A DNA stretch of 54,140 nucleotides from positions 1 to 54,140 of the forward strand of contig JAPONS010000007.1 of assembly GCA_026713825.1 (NCBI GenBank), read 5' to 3'. The notes under the pieces were generated by a model that did not search any database, was not told the DNA's origin, and saw only the letters and a program-made list of their open reading frames with translations. Numbering within the stretch: position 1 is the first letter of the stretch; each line of letters starts with the position of its first letter. The position numbers and the translations under genes were made by a program. This document shows, in pieces, positions 8,501 through 12,596 of this stretch. This stretch comes from Chloroflexota bacterium. Its GTDB lineage: Bacteria > Chloroflexota > Dehalococcoidia > Lucifugimonadales > UBA1127.

Positions 8501-8704
8501 GGCTGGCCGAACGTCACGCAGGCGACGGTCTCCGTTGGCGACATTGTCTTCTGTGTGGAAGTCGAGCGGGACATACTCTCGCTGACGACAGCGGGGCAAT
8601 CGCCGCTCGTACTCACCATCCTGGAGACCAACCTCGGCGGCAACGGCTATCCGGGGCTGGAGGTGCTGGGGCGGATGTGGGGGGAGGGCGCATTGCGACG
8701 GTAG
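8501..8704 (+). pseudogene. 3' gene fragment of unknown family
   Basis: An open stretch of 67 codons between TGA 8498-8500 and TAG 8702-8704 has protein-like composition (for example SPLVLTILETNLGGNGYPGL then EVLGRMWGEGALRR) and high GC3 like the backbone. No ATG start or ribosome site precedes it. It reads like the C-terminal part of a longer gene whose front is missing. The last codons overlap the left arm of the 14-bp inverted repeat that bounds the accessory block, so it may have been cut when that block arrived. I do not recognise the family. Confidence 0.4.
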
Positions 8705-8712
8705 TGTTACAG
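8699..8712 (+). repeat. Left arm of 14-bp inverted repeat bounding the accessory block
   Basis: The sequence cggtagtgttacag is found again, inverted and without mismatch, at 10918-10931. The next three inner bases match at two of three positions. The two arms enclose about 2.2 kb of lower-GC DNA with genes unlike their neighbours. No transposase is encoded between them, and no flanking target duplication was seen. Confidence 0.6.
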
Positions 8713-8713
8713 T

Positions 8714-8742
8714 TTGACACACCCCGTTCTGTTTGATGAGCT
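8714..8742 (+). promoter_or_regulatory. Candidate sigma-70-type promoter for the 51-aa ORF
   Basis: TTGACA (8714-8719) lies one base inside the left repeat arm. The hexamer 17 bases further, tgagct, is a poor -10. The 51-aa ORF starts 18 bases after it. The -35 is perfect but the -10 is weak, so this is tentative. Confidence 0.35.
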
Positions 8743-8760
8743 TACGAGGTTCAGGAGGGA

Positions 8761-8916
8761 GTGAGGGCGAAGAGCATAAAGGCGAAGCCGAAGCGTCCCA
8801 AGAATGCAATGGGCGCTGCCGTGATTGTAGCCAAGATCATCACGGGGGAAATAGAGGAAGAGCCCACGACGCGGTTCATCGTGGAAGTCGTGCCGGAGCC
8901 GCCACCCAAGAAGTAG
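8761..8916 (+). CDS. Small basic hypothetical protein (51 aa)
   Basis: GTG 8761 follows aggagg at 8753-8758 (spacing only two bases). The product has a Lys/Arg-rich N-terminus (MRAKSIKAKPKRPKNAMG), a short hydrophobic stretch (AAVIVAKIITG), an acidic patch (EIEEEPTTRF) and a Pro/Lys tail (VPEPPPKK). A good intrinsic terminator begins 11 bases after its TAG, and a possible promoter lies upstream, so it looks like a one-gene transcription unit. The family is not recognised. The low-complexity ends suggest nucleic-acid or membrane contact, which is speculation. Confidence 0.5.
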   Translation: MRAKSIKAKPKRPKNAMGAAVIVAKIITGEIEEEPTTRFIVEVVPEPPPKK

Positions 8917-8926
8917 AATCTCAGGA

Positions 8927-8967
8927 AGATACTCCCCGGCTAGGAAGCGGTCGGAGAGTATCTTTTT
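8927..8967 (+). terminator. Intrinsic terminator after the 51-aa ORF
   Basis: The arms agatactccccg (8927-8938) and cggagagtatct (8952-8963) pair over 11 of 12 positions around a 13-base loop and run directly into TTTTT. It closes the small-ORF unit and isolates it from the structured leader downstream. Confidence 0.8.
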
Positions 8968-8990
8968 GTGTGGGTGATACCCTCCTCGGT

Positions 8991-9019
8991 TTGACATACA
9001 CCATGCGGATTGCTAGCCT
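8991..9019 (+). promoter_or_regulatory. Candidate promoter for the coiled-coil/peptidase operon
   Basis: TTGACA (8991-8996), a 17-base spacer, then TAGCCT (9014-9019), which keeps the T-A-n-n-n-T positions. Transcription would start near 9026, exactly at the first base of the structured leader's outer stem. That coincidence supports the assignment. Confidence 0.6.
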
Positions 9020-9025
9020 GACCTA

Positions 9026-9146
9026 GCTCTGACAAGCCAACGCAGTCGCTTTGTGTCTGCGAGTGGGGCCTTTATGCCCCCTTGCGGTGCAAAGACAGGG
9101 TGACGGCGGCTTGTCAGAGCATGGCCCTAACTCTTCCGCAAGGGGG
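9026..9146 (+). promoter_or_regulatory. Structured 5' leader with ribosome-site sequestration
   Basis: Four elements alternate. A: gctctgacaagcc (9026-9038) pairs perfectly with ggcttgtcagagc (9108-9120). B: cccccttgcgg (9077-9087) pairs perfectly with ccgcaaggggg (9136-9146), and that second arm contains the ribosome site of the gene starting at 9152. Inside A/A' are two more hairpins, cgcag/ctgcg (9041-9061) and ggggc/gcccc (9065-9080); the latter uses the same Cs as B. The order A-B-A'-B' permits a pseudoknot or a switch between an open and a closed ribosome site. I could not match it to a known riboswitch class. A ligand, protein or temperature signal are all possible. Confidence 0.65.
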
Positions 9147-9151
9147 TTCCT

Positions 9152-10390
9152 ATGTCTCGCCGTACCGTCATTGCCGTTGCCTGCGTCTCCGGCTTACTTG
9201 TCCTGCTGCTGTTCTCTGCTGTAGGCTACCTGTGGACACAGCGCGCCTCTCTCACTGCGGAGCTGGCCGTAACTACGGCCATGCTCACAAATACCAAGGA
9301 TGATTTGGCGCAAACCGAGACCATTCTCCAGGAGACCAAAGACGTCCTGACGTCGACGGAGACAACTCTAGGCGAAACGCAGGCCACGCTGGATGACACC
9401 CGGGCGGACCTAGTGCAGACCCGTACAGATATGAACGAGGTCACAGAGGAACGTAACGCCGTAGCCGAGCAACTGACCCAAACCCAAGAGGAGCGGGACC
9501 GCTACCAAGCAGAGGCGCACCGCCTCTCCACGGCTAACAAGATGTTGACCGACGAGAAACGCACCCTCACCCATGAGAAGATCGTGCTCCAGGGGCAGCA
9601 TGACCACCTGCAGCAGCAAAATGGTGCGCTTCTTACGAGCAACGAACGGATGGAAGCCCGTGTAGACGTAGCGGAACGGGAACGAGATACGGCGCGCCGT
9701 GACCTGACGGAGTTGCGCGCCTCTATGGGCAGCGTCCAAGAGCTGGAGCGCAGAGCCAGTCGGATACGCGCGGAGATCTCCGTGCTGGAGGACCGGCGCA
9801 AGCCCCTCATCCTCTCCGCTAACGACACCTACGTGACCGGCTTCCAATGCACGGGCAGCATGGAGCCGCGCCTAACCTGCCTTGACGAGGCGGAGTTCCT
9901 GGCGGACTTCCAGCCAGAGAATATCACCCTGGGCGCCTCCATCAGCTTCAGAAGCCGCGCGTGCTGGAGCGATGCCCCGCCGAATGCAAACACAATGCAT
10001 CGGGTTGTGGATATCCGGTACAGCTCCGGCGCCTACTACTTCTGGCCAAAGGGGGACGCCAACCTGAGCGGCGACTGTTGGGTTCCCCATACCGCAGTCA
10101 ACGGCTACATCATTGCAATCTTCAAGAACACACGGCCGGAGAACGCGGAGCTGCGGAACAACGTGAACACGGCCAAAGCCCGCCTAGTTGTCGCGTATGA
10201 CGCTGCCATTGCCCACCGGGAAGCGAATGGGTGCCACAACCCCGATGTGGTTTGCTACTTCTCCGGCACTGCGTACACGAAGTGGATGCAATTAGATCGG
10301 GCATGGAAGGATGCGTGGAACTACTACGACTGTTGGTATCAGAACGCCGTGGACTCCAAGTATCCGGGGCACATTCCACATACCTGCTAA
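9152..10390 (+). CDS. Membrane-anchored coiled-coil protein with C-terminal Sec11-type signal peptidase (S26B) domain
   Basis: A 412-residue protein. Residues 6-27 form one TM segment (TVIAVACVSGLLVLLLFSAV). Residues 30-215 are a long E/Q/T/R-rich coiled coil. From 228 a domain matches the Sec11/SipW family of signal peptidases: TGSMEP with the nucleophile Ser236, LGASISFRS, MHRVVDIRY with the general-base His283, and PKGDANLSGD with Asp302 and Asp308. All catalytic positions of the Ser-His-Asp type are kept. Eight cysteines in the exported part suggest disulfides. Known signal peptidases have the Ser right next to the membrane; here about 200 residues of coiled coil lie between. The tail (326-412) is not recognised. 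Its ribosome site is inside the leader's B stem. GC is about 55%. Confidence 0.75.
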   Translation: MSRRTVIAVACVSGLLVLLLFSAVGYLWTQRASLTAELAVTTAMLTNTKDDLAQTETILQETKDVLTSTETTLGETQATLDDTRADLVQTRTDMNEVTEERNAVAEQLTQTQEERDRYQAEAHRLSTANKMLTDEKRTLTHEKIVLQGQHDHLQQQNGALLTSNERMEARVDVAERERDTARRDLTELRASMGSVQELERRASRIRAEISVLEDRRKPLILSANDTYVTGFQCTGSMEPRLTCLDEAEFLADFQPENITLGASISFRSRACWSDAPPNANTMHRVVDIRYSSGAYYFWPKGDANLSGDCWVPHTAVNGYIIAIFKNTRPENAELRNNVNTAKARLVVAYDAAIAHREANGCHNPDVVCYFSGTAYTKWMQLDRAWKDAWNYYDCWYQNAVDSKYPGHIPHTC

Positions 10391-10401
10391 GCGGGGAGGA
10401 G

Positions 10402-10674
10402 ATGGTGGACGACCCGAACACGAACATTGAGGCTGCAGGAGTAACGCCGTGGGCTATCGCACTTTTCACGATTGCCTTGGCAGATGGGCTGTTGGATGCT
10501 GAGGAACGGGGTGTTCTTGATGCAGCGGAATGGACAAGGCAAGTCGAGGCGCTACTAATGCCGCAAGTACGTTCAAATCCTCGTCTGACAGCAGAAGACG
10601 TGTCCAATGTGGAGCGTCTTTTTGCCCAGCTTCAGGCAGTGCTAGTGCGCCGTAGACGACGTCCGAAACCCTAA
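10402..10674 (+). CDS. Small TerB-like hypothetical protein (90 aa)
   Basis: It starts 12 bases after the coiled-coil gene stops, at ATG 10402 (or GTG 10405) directly behind ggggagga, so it is probably translated from the same mRNA. The segment ALFTIALADGLLDAEERGVL resembles the TerB helix pair (A-x-x-x-A-D-G-x-x-x-x-x-E). The second half, with QVEALLMPQV and VERLFAQLQAVL, is helical, and it ends RRRRRPKP. The protein is shorter than full TerB domains, so the link is suggestive only. Function is unknown; it may partner the membrane peptidase next to it. Confidence 0.55.
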   Translation: MVDDPNTNIEAAGVTPWAIALFTIALADGLLDAEERGVLDAAEWTRQVEALLMPQVRSNPRLTAEDVSNVERLFAQLQAVLVRRRRRPKP

Positions 10675-10752
10675 GCCTTGGCAATAACATAGTTTCCTCG
10701 TATATTTTGGCAAACGTATCCATGGGTTCCTCCGATCCAAGACTACCAAATG

Positions 10753-10780
10753 TTGCTTTTCGTTCAATTTCAGCTATAAT
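10753..10780 (+). promoter_or_regulatory. Candidate promoter with consensus -10
   Basis: TTGCTT (10753-10758), a 16-base spacer and a perfect TATAAT (10775-10780). The expected transcription start falls at or next to GTG 10787, which would give a leaderless mRNA for the 41-codon ORF there. Confidence 0.45.
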
Positions 10781-10786
10781 TCCTAT

Positions 10787-10912
10787 GTGAATCAACTACC
10801 ACGAGACAAGCCCATCCACATGAGCATCGGCCTTCTGACGACTCCCGCGATGGTGGCGGGCCTCATAGACCACCCGCTCACGTGGAAGTGGTTTCTCCAA
10901 AGACTGCCATAA
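10787..10912 (+). CDS. Possible leaderless small ORF (41 aa)
   Basis: GTG 10787 to TAA 10910-10912 encodes MNQLPRDKPIHMSIG then LLTTPAMVAGLIDHPLTWKW and a basic end FLQRLP. No ribosome site exists, but a consensus -10 seven bases upstream would place the 5' end of the mRNA at the start codon. The ORF ends six bases before the right arm of the bounding repeat. There is no known family; it may be a chance frame. Confidence 0.3.
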   Translation: MNQLPRDKPIHMSIGLLTTPAMVAGLIDHPLTWKWFLQRLP

Positions 10913-10917
10913 CGAAG

Positions 10918-10931
10918 CTGTAACACTACCG
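10918..10931 (-). repeat. Right arm of 14-bp inverted repeat
   Basis: ctgtaacactaccg, the exact inverse of 8699-8712. It marks the right edge of the block containing the 51-aa ORF, the peptidase operon and the small leaderless ORF. A new transcription unit with its own promoter starts 15 bases beyond it. Confidence 0.6.
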
Positions 10932-10945
10932 GTTGGCGTACTCTA

Positions 10946-10974
10946 TTGACAGAATTTCAGAACACATGTACGGT
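10946..10974 (+). promoter_or_regulatory. Candidate promoter for the 90-aa ORF at 11005
   Basis: TTGACA (10946-10951), a 17-base spacer and TACGGT (10969-10974, T-A-n-n-n-T kept). The layout equals the candidate at 8991 and places the start about 24 bases before the ribosome site of the next gene. Confidence 0.55.
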
Positions 10975-11004
10975 GAACGAAACTTAACGGTGAAGGAGTC
11001 TACA

Positions 11005-11277
11005 ATGAGAATACCGAGGGACGGAATTCGCCAAGAAACTGACGGCCAAAGACTTGCCCACGAGATGCACGAGAGTCTTGAGGCTGAACAGCGGGCCAAG
11101 GAGAAGTTAGTCGTCGACTCACCTTGTGCCACAATTCTCCAGACTGAAATTGTGCTTGGGCCTGACGGGAATCTCACCAGCACGCTGGAAGAGTGGCTTT
11201 TGGCAGAAGAACGCGCGAATCAAGCATTTGCTGCATACGAAAGGTATTGTGACCAACAGGACGGGCGCCATCCATAA
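11005..11277 (+). CDS. Hypothetical protein (90 aa)
   Basis: ATG 11005 has an ideal ribosome site, aaggag at 10993-10998; the frame is open further upstream but without a site. The protein is acidic, charged and mostly helical (GQRLAHEMHESLEAEQRAKE, then LEEWLLAEERANQAFAAYER), with a short middle segment ILQTEIVLGPDGNLT that could be a beta hairpin. No signal or TM segment is present. The family is not recognised. GC is about 50%, as in the accessory block to its left, so it probably belongs to the same acquired DNA. Confidence 0.6.
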   Translation: MRIPRDGIRQETDGQRLAHEMHESLEAEQRAKEKLVVDSPCATILQTEIVLGPDGNLTSTLEEWLLAEERANQAFAAYERYCDQQDGRHP

Positions 11278-11364
11278 AGCCGTTCCGCCCGGAAGCAATT
11301 TCAGTGGCGAAGTCTAGGAATCACAAGACGGGGCAACCAGGAGGTTGTCCTTCTGTTCGGGAGA

Positions 11365-11390
11365 CCCTTCGACGGGCTCAGGGCAAACGG
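11365..11390 (-). repeat. Dispersed short repeat, copy 1
   Basis: On the minus strand this reads CCGTTTGCCCTGAGC then CCGTCGAAGGG, 26 bases. It matches copies at 41031 and 46502 (two to four differences) and an elongated version at 38236. This is a short non-coding repeat scattered through the window. It lies in the convergent gap between the 90-aa ORF and an amidohydrolase. Confidence 0.7.
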
Positions 11391-11419
11391 GCAGGTGGAG
11401 GCGGGTGGCTGGCGTCGGG

Positions 11420-11462
11420 GTTCCTGCCCCCGTATCGGGGTGCGGGGCAGGCTTCGCAGGAA
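11420..11462. repeat. Nested hairpin in a convergent gap (possible two-way terminator)
   Basis: The outer arms gttcctg/caggaac enclose the inner arms cctgcccc/ggggcagg around cgtatcggggtgc. Both strands form the same structure. It sits between two convergent genes and 12 bases after the stop of the amidohydrolase on the minus strand, so it may stop or protect transcripts from both sides. No T run follows on either strand. The sequence style is that of another dispersed palindrome family. Confidence 0.5.
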
Positions 11463-11474
11463 CGAGGGAAGGGG

Positions 11475-12596
11475 TTACACCTTCAGGTTGAAGCACCGCG
11501 ATGGGTTGTCCCACAGGAGCTGCTTCATGAAGCCGGGCGTGACACCCTCGACGCTGGTCAGGATGTCCAGCCCGCGCGGGAAGTCCATCATCGCGTCCCT
11601 GTGCGGGTAGTCCGACGCCCACATGGTCACGCCGCCGCCCAGCGAGCGCTCGATCATCGGCAGCGCCTCCTCGCCCGCCTCGCAGGAGACAAACGCCTGG
11701 CCGCGCCGGAAGTACTCGGACGGCTTGTGCGCGCCGCCGTAGCCCTCGTTCAGCATCGGGTTGGACACCTGCTGGTCCAGCCGCTCCATCCAGTAGGGCA
11801 GCCAGCCCGCGCCCGACTCGAGGAAGGACACGGTCAGCTTGGGGAAGCGGTCGAGGACGCCGCCGCTGGTCATTGCGAGGCACGCAGCCATCTGCTCCAT
11901 GGGGTGGCACGCCGCGTGGTGCGCGAAGTGCGTGTTCACCCGCCCCTGTGGGAACCACGGCAGCCGGTTCTGGATGCCCTCGTGTACCGAGATGTTGACC
12001 CCGTACTCCTCGGCGATGGCGTAGATGGGGTCGTACGCGCGGTCGGACATGAGGCGGCCCATGTGCGGGTTCGGGCGCCAGAAGATGCCCACCATGCCCA
12101 ACTCCGTCGCGCACCGCCGCAGCTCCTGCGCAGCCAGCTCGATGTCCTGGAGCGGCAGCAGGCAGACGCCCTTCAGCCGGTCCGGGTTGTGTGACATAAA
12201 GTCGTACAGCCAGTTGTTGTACGCCCTGCACATGGCCGCAGAGAGGTCAGGGTCAAGAGTGTCTCCCCAGGTGGCGTAGAGGCCGATGCCCGTGAAGCAT
12301 ACGGCGATGTCGACGCCCTCGGCGTCCATGTCTTCCAGGTACGCCTGCGGCTCGAAGTTGTGCGTCATGCCGTGCTTGAACTGCTTGCGCCAGATGGGGT
12401 CCGTCGCCATGCCGGCCCCGGGCGAGCCGAGCGAGTCGTCGTTCTGCAGCACGCCGCCGATGCGCGTGGCCAGCGTGAACCGTCCGCCCATCTGCACGTT
12501 GTAGTGCTGGAACCGCTTCTCCAGGTAGTTGTCCCACATGTCGATGGGCTCGACGACGTGGCGGTCGCAGTCAATCGTCTTGAATCCGGCTTTCAT
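11475..12596 (-). CDS. Amidohydrolase-2 family metal-dependent hydrolase
   Basis: A 373-residue TIM-barrel protein of the ACMSD/amidohydrolase-2 family (COG2159), whose members hydrolyse or decarboxylate small cyclic and carboxylic compounds. Metal ligands: D-x-D-x-H in IDCDRHVVEP near the start, His in NISVHEG, the histidines in THFAHHAACH, and the late Asp in MWASDYPHRD. The start ATG 12596 follows gggagggaccacc on the minus strand. The gene is single in its unit but shares about the same architecture with 20481-21617, pointing to a paralogous set. The substrate is unknown. Confidence 0.85.
   Translation of the reverse strand: MKAGFKTIDCDRHVVEPIDMWDNYLEKRFQHYNVQMGGRFTLATRIGGVLQNDDSLGSPGAGMATDPIWRKQFKHGMTHNFEPQAYLEDMDAEGVDIAVCFTGIGLYATWGDTLDPDLSAAMCRAYNNWLYDFMSHNPDRLKGVCLLPLQDIELAAQELRRCATELGMVGIFWRPNPHMGRLMSDRAYDPIYAIAEEYGVNISVHEGIQNRLPWFPQGRVNTHFAHHAACHPMEQMAACLAMTSGGVLDRFPKLTVSFLESGAGWLPYWMERLDQQVSNPMLNEGYGGAHKPSEYFRRGQAFVSCEAGEEALPMIERSLGGGVTMWASDYPHRDAMMDFPRGLDILTSVEGVTPGFMKQLLWDNPSRCFNLKV

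Follow-up and report, generated by a model that had tools for sequence, protein, structure and literature searches.

Pseudoknot translational riboswitches (SAM-II, SAM-V, SAM/SAH and preQ1) are the first of two described groups to which the RNA considered here can be likened. In the parts of the sources available, they are H-type pseudoknots with strands in the order A-B-A′-B′, they control translation, and their ribosome site falls within or next to the 3′ strand; helix P1 in the SAM-V structure is four base pairs long (PMC6061858). The second group comprises the 5′-terminal stem-loop stabilisers of ompA and vacA, in which, according to the accessible portions of two papers (PMC3997798; vacA, PMC4843948), a stable hairpin at the transcript start, with the ribosome site downstream, stabilises the mRNA. 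Structured RNA motifs have also been reported from Chloroflexi, namely Chloroflexi-1 (RF01698) and pan (RF01749), in the excerpted text of PMC2864571.

Architecture and predicted fold of the leader

The window, that is, the whole stretch of 54,140 nucleotides that was analysed, carries an RNA leader with the strand order of the riboswitches and, if the predicted transcript start is right, a terminal hairpin like that of the stabilisers. The earlier note had described here a 13-bp and an 11-bp helix interlocked as A-B-A′-B′, with the ribosome site inside B′; both statements hold, the interlock occupying 9026-9146. The layout, its conservation and covariation, and its place between promoter-like boxes and a start codon are direct observations. 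The features are as follows.

8922-8968, + strand: terminator-like hairpin with T run (-25.4 kcal/mol), just upstream, which sets the transcript apart
8991-8996, + strand: -35 box TTGACA (6/6), read from sequence; TTGAC is similarly placed in L025, L118a, L118b and L103
9014-9019, + strand: weak -10 box TAGCCT with TGC before it, which puts the transcript start at about 9026
9026-9038, + strand: A, 5′ strand of the clamp, GCTCTGACAAGCC; predicted first transcript base; 13/13 pairs covary
9057-9069, + strand: P, local partner of B, which resembles B′ (CTGCGAGTGGGG / CCGCAAGGGGG)
9077-9087, + strand: B, anti-ribosome-site strand, CCCCCTTGCGG, complementary to both P and B′
9108-9120, + strand: A′, 3′ strand of the clamp, perfect 13 bp with A
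9121-9135, + strand: A′-to-B′ spacer, 15 nt
9136-9146, + strand: B′, CCGCAAGGGGG, containing the ribosome site AAGGGGG (9140-9146)
9138-9149, + strand: conserved 12-mer GCAAGGGGGTTC, overlapping B′
9152-10390, + strand: downstream gene (412 aa) with a membrane segment, a coiled coil and an ER/archaeal-type signal peptidase-like domain

B/B′ is a perfect 11-bp helix (12 bp if one G·U is included), and the ATG at 9152 lies 5 nt downstream of the ribosome site. The promoter-like boxes are 17 nt apart and TAGCCT ends 6 nt upstream of A. That A opens the transcript is a prediction from sequence alone: the boxes place the start at about 9026 and a TAnnnT box occurs at most 16 nt upstream of A in five of the six leaders compared below, the window included (no transcript data), but the consensus promoter scan of the window does not contain the TTGACA/TAGCCT promoter. 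The terminator-like hairpin at 8922-8968 is also not among the terminators listed by the scan.

The 95 nucleotides from 9026 to 9120 fold as a single rod of -60.3 kcal/mol (z -8.15; 0/200 shuffles as low), the most extreme of 5404 windows of 100 nt in 54 kb and the second in the 454 kb examined. Within this rod B pairs with P. A small hairpin at 9065-9080 had been said to compete for B; this hairpin is the tip of a larger one at 9057-9087, which has -19.9 kcal/mol and occupies all of B. Forcing B/B′ without a pseudoknot costs 15 kcal/mol in the window (-52.0 vs -67.4). Perfect inverted repeats of at least 13 bp within 120 nt occur only twice in the window, so that A/A′ is rare; 11-bp inverted repeats are common (eight other places). 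Shuffling the tail while keeping the ribosome site yields a B/B′ helix of 11 bp or longer in 156 of 4000 trials (3.9%), whereas shuffling the whole tail yields one in 1 of 4000; the likeness of P to B′ is matched by 21 of 500 shuffles. On the window alone B/B′ is therefore doubtful, since it is close to the chance level when shuffling preserves the ribosome site; this doubt is settled by the retention of the helix in five other leaders. An upstream ORF at 9074-9103 (MPPCGAKTG) was rejected, as its ribosome-site duplex reaches -6.6 vs -5.7 kcal/mol for the random control and the loop ATG is absent in L118a, L118b and L186.

The surrounding DNA has features of its own. A 17-bp inverted repeat (94%) at 8699-8715 and 10915-10931 brackets the leader and its gene, and exact occurrences of its pattern in the genome are confined to these two places. 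G002, a close relative (96.5% DNA identity on the left), lacks 8522-11475, and homology of the RidA-like gene tail to G001 stops near 8698; together with the inverted repeat, the G002 gap and the G001 homology end may mark the ends of a transposase-less cargo element. A putative transposase remnant at 10784-10909 was discarded: relatives were absent from 39 other genomes, it belongs to no Pfam family, and plasmids gave only matches with E above 1. Two REP-like repeats at 11352-11475 have dozens of copies in this genome, G001 and G002. No DNA match to 8699-10931 was found in plasmids and phages, and viral contigs matched neither of two patterns nor the protein.

Related leaders, covariation and downstream genes

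Searches of the relatives' genomes found no DNA-level homologue of the leader; a single weak match in G259 is short and lies at the start of the gene. Searches of this kind are blind to an RNA in whose clamp every letter changes. Six leaders from four genomes are nevertheless available: the window, L025, the pair L118a and L118b in G014, and the pair L103 and L186 in G018 (L118a and L103 are the same loci as L049 and L050, respectively). L025, from a Chloroflexi MAG, was found by protein homology (35% protein identity); the fold in front of one of its candidate starts reaches z -4.8, and its leader combines a 13-bp clamp of other letters, the loop TTATGCCCCC and a B′, GCCGCGAGGGGG, that precedes a GTG start. 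L049 and L050, whose genomes represent two other families of the window's order, were found with E 4.6e-4 and 0.013 by R1, a single-sequence covariance model built from the window alone; neither this route nor the protein search nor the 12-mer count below presupposes the layout. The layout of L049 was then flagged by a scan for B/B′, and that of L050 was recognised on inspection of the other R1 matches. L118b and L186 came from layout scans of fetched DNA (1.2 Mb of G014, 0.8 Mb of G018), with the caveat that these scans did demand both helices. R1 missed L025, L118b and L186; its matches L051, L052 and L053 had no such layout on inspection. No layout copy occurs in the 0.416 Mb of G002 scanned.

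A relaxed layout scan, with 43 real vs 37 control rows, is not specific on its own; members are set apart only by the shared 12-mer. The exact 12-mer has five occurrences in 2.64 Mb of fetched DNA (duplicates excluded; loci repeating identical DNA were skipped here and in the layout scans), and all five lie within the layout: each has a 13-bp A/A′ whose end is 13-15 nt upstream, together with a complementary B and a TAnnnT box. Among 39 looser matches, 38 reach no more than 9.0 and the 39th, L025, reaches 12.5; 12 of 1499 random control positions reach at least 11.5. The loose matches L106 and L187 have neither clamp nor B.

Most relatives of the peptidase gene lack the leader RNA. Sixteen leaders of the gene family were folded first, and 14 of them gave z between -1.62 and +1.49; the two exceptions were the window (z -5.27) and L021. 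L006, L012, L013, L017, L020 and L023 were not in this first set; a second set comprised L013, L017, L023, L025 and L027, and L006 and L012, which are truncated by the end of the contig, were left out of all folding. The labels L014/L024, L010/L026 and L003/L020 denote the same genes. L021 was not counted as a leader because its hairpin (z -6.98) sits within the 3′ end of an upstream ORF. This hairpin (L021:1106-1162) has perfect 20-bp arms, the ORF is small and Cys-rich, and another copy of the peptidase gene starts 33 nt downstream; a near copy of the stretch after the hairpin recurs before the next gene at L021:2561. A further long hairpin, at L078:17826-17925 (z -6.2), lies between two G002 ORFs, directly before an ORF start.

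Homologous leaders and covariation had been named in the earlier note as the check on its reading, and the six leaders provide it. The alignment blocks were delimited manually, and a single bulged base was taken out of L025 and of L186; MAFFT alignments A3 and A4 fail to align the clamp and were excluded from the pair counts. All A/A′ cells (100%) are paired, and 13/13 of its pairs show compensatory change. B/B′ is paired in 65 of 66 cells (98.5%), the single mismatch being in L103, with compensatory change at two of its 11 pairs and eight invariant; one of the two covarying pairs is common to both G014 copies. Over the whole structure, 99.3% of 144 cells are paired, both sides change at 15 of 24 pairs, and no shuffle in 500 equals any measure. 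The covariation score of 0.853 is likewise reached by 0/500 shuffles and falls to at most 0.169 when the structure is slid by 1-3 columns. Two covarying interlocking helices whose 3′ strand carries the ribosome site, as expected of a pseudoknot translational riboswitch, are thus present, the support for B/B′ resting on two pairs.

The A′-B′ spacers measure 15, 19, 15, 15, 15 and 13 nt, and B′ lies 5-12 nt upstream of ATG, GTG or TTG. The rod has z from -5.8 to -8.0 and is the lowest-energy fold in 6/6, with B′ outside it. Every leader keeps a local hairpin on B. P is B′-like in three of the six, with no mimicry in L025 or L186.

In the window, the signal peptidase-like domain of the downstream protein has Ser236, His283 and Asp302, invariant in 10 relatives. 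The protein matches the profiles SEC11C (2.1e-6) and TIGR02228 (6.4e-5, under its cut-off) and no Pfam family. This coiled-coil, ER-type signal-peptidase-like family occurs in 12 of 98 genomes searched, with several diverged copies per genome and seven matches in this one. Five of the six downstream genes begin with a hydrophobic (membrane or export) segment. The six comprise two signal-peptidase-like proteins, two lipoproteins with LLAIGC and LLGGC, which we take to be lipobox motifs, one small membrane protein and one unclear case; no convincing gene follows L118a. No shared metabolic role is apparent among them. The importance of the peptidase to the leader is not shown, and the same RNA precedes other exported-protein genes.

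Proposed partner exchange and rival explanations

The reading we prefer, to which we give a probability of about 60%, is that the leader is a new translational RNA with an A/A′ clamp, in which B chooses between P and B′. Transcription would start at the first base of A, and A and A′ would form a clamp of about 13 bp maintained in every state; A/A′ is indeed compatible with both the rod and the pseudoknot. In the putative ON state, B would pair with P, its neighbour on the upstream side, so that the rod runs unbroken and the ribosome site stays free. In the putative OFF state, B would pair instead with the downstream B′, and the resulting H-type pseudoknot on the clamp would bury the ribosome site. 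The balance between P and B′ would control how the following gene, which in most cases encodes an exported or membrane protein, is translated, and may be shifted by a ligand, a protein, the ribosome or temperature. The switch or pseudoknot layout proposed earlier is supported by the six covarying leaders as regards conservation of structure; switching itself remains inferred, as do the occurrence of both states, which of them is ON, and the trigger.

Energies of clamp plus B/B′ against the free fold are -67.7/-67.4, -63.9/-66.8, -60.2/-67.3, -55.5/-60.1, -61.5/-62.5 and -64.0/-60.1 kcal/mol for the six leaders, that is, differences from -3.9 to +7.1 kcal/mol. These values carry no pseudoknot penalty; a real one would add several kcal/mol. 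Because the two forms are close in energy without it, partner exchange is plausible, but the rod is probably, on these models, the ground state. Several facts speak against a switch: the rod has the better nearest-neighbour energy, imposing B/B′ without a pseudoknot costs 10-16 kcal/mol in 6/6, and P is transcribed ahead of B′.

The window alone, where the rod wins on energy and the leader has no DNA homologue, argued for a plain 5′-terminal hairpin that protects the mRNA and keeps the ribosome site unstructured, B/B′ being a by-product of P imitating that site. The lowest-energy rod of all six leaders, with B′ outside, fits this explanation, as does the stabilising action of 5′ hairpins mentioned above. 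However, it accounts neither for the conservation of B and the 12-mer nor for the paired changes in B/B′, and in L186 B/B′ is kept though P is unlike B′; we regard it as unlikely. Less likely still is that a protein (a translational repressor, a ribosomal factor or a secretion factor) recognises a fixed pseudoknot or rod, with no partner exchange. This would agree with the conserved letters of B and B′ and with the spacer of 13-19 nt (15 in 4/6), a length which, by inference, also suits a strand crossing the clamp, but the local hairpin on B is kept as well in every leader. The leader might instead act as DNA or stand apart from the gene, as a mobile hairpin, a recombination site or a small RNA of its own. 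This explanation could draw on the position of the window copy inside the 17-bp inverted repeat, in DNA absent from the close relative, and on the lack of a clear gene behind L118a, but is very improbable, since the arms differ wholly between copies, B′ precedes a start codon, folding is better on the + than on the - strand in 6/6, and the scan of the window has no + strand terminator-like site after the rod. The near-identical genomic copies expected of a MITE or REP hairpin are also lacking, with one match in its own genome and none in 97 relatives.

On the partner-exchange reading, a broader hypothesis may be put forward tentatively, at less than even confidence. A new class of translational switch in Dehalococcoidia would tune a regulon whose members are exported and membrane proteins, a signal-peptidase-like enzyme among them. 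It would do so by changing the partner of the anti-ribosome-site strand while the 5′ clamp stays fixed, and it may sense the state of the envelope or of secretion.

Relation to known RNA classes

The earlier note could match the leader to no known class, and Rfam release 15 agrees, without a match at any of the six leaders, Chloroflexi-1 and pan included. At the gathering cut-off it returned only tRNAs; relaxing the limit to E 5 gave two weak matches, both well short of their own cut-offs. No paper title describing the leader was found in a partial literature that excluded supplements, so that absence from print is not established. Since the same layout in different letters precedes other exported-protein genes in relatives, the leader probably represents a type of RNA control element not described before.

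Hiding of the ribosome site is already known as translation control; the leader class falls in no Rfam family. The exported-protein genes that it precedes are unrelated to one another and come from at least three families of a single order, few members of which are in culture; for this reason its regulon and trigger could expose an unseen envelope-wide control. The model is concrete: a 13-bp clamp, an 11-nt exchange strand and a near-fixed spacer.

Compared with the pseudoknot riboswitches, the leader has a clamp of 13 bp rather than the four base pairs of SAM-V P1, its A varies freely, no conserved ligand core is seen, and its genes encode exported proteins rather than one pathway. Unlike the ompA and vacA stabilisers, it has a second conserved helix that joins the inside of the hairpin to the ribosome site. 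By analogy, the pseudoknot riboswitches of the SAM-V type appear nearest to it in working, and the 5′ stem-loop stabilisers nearest in place.
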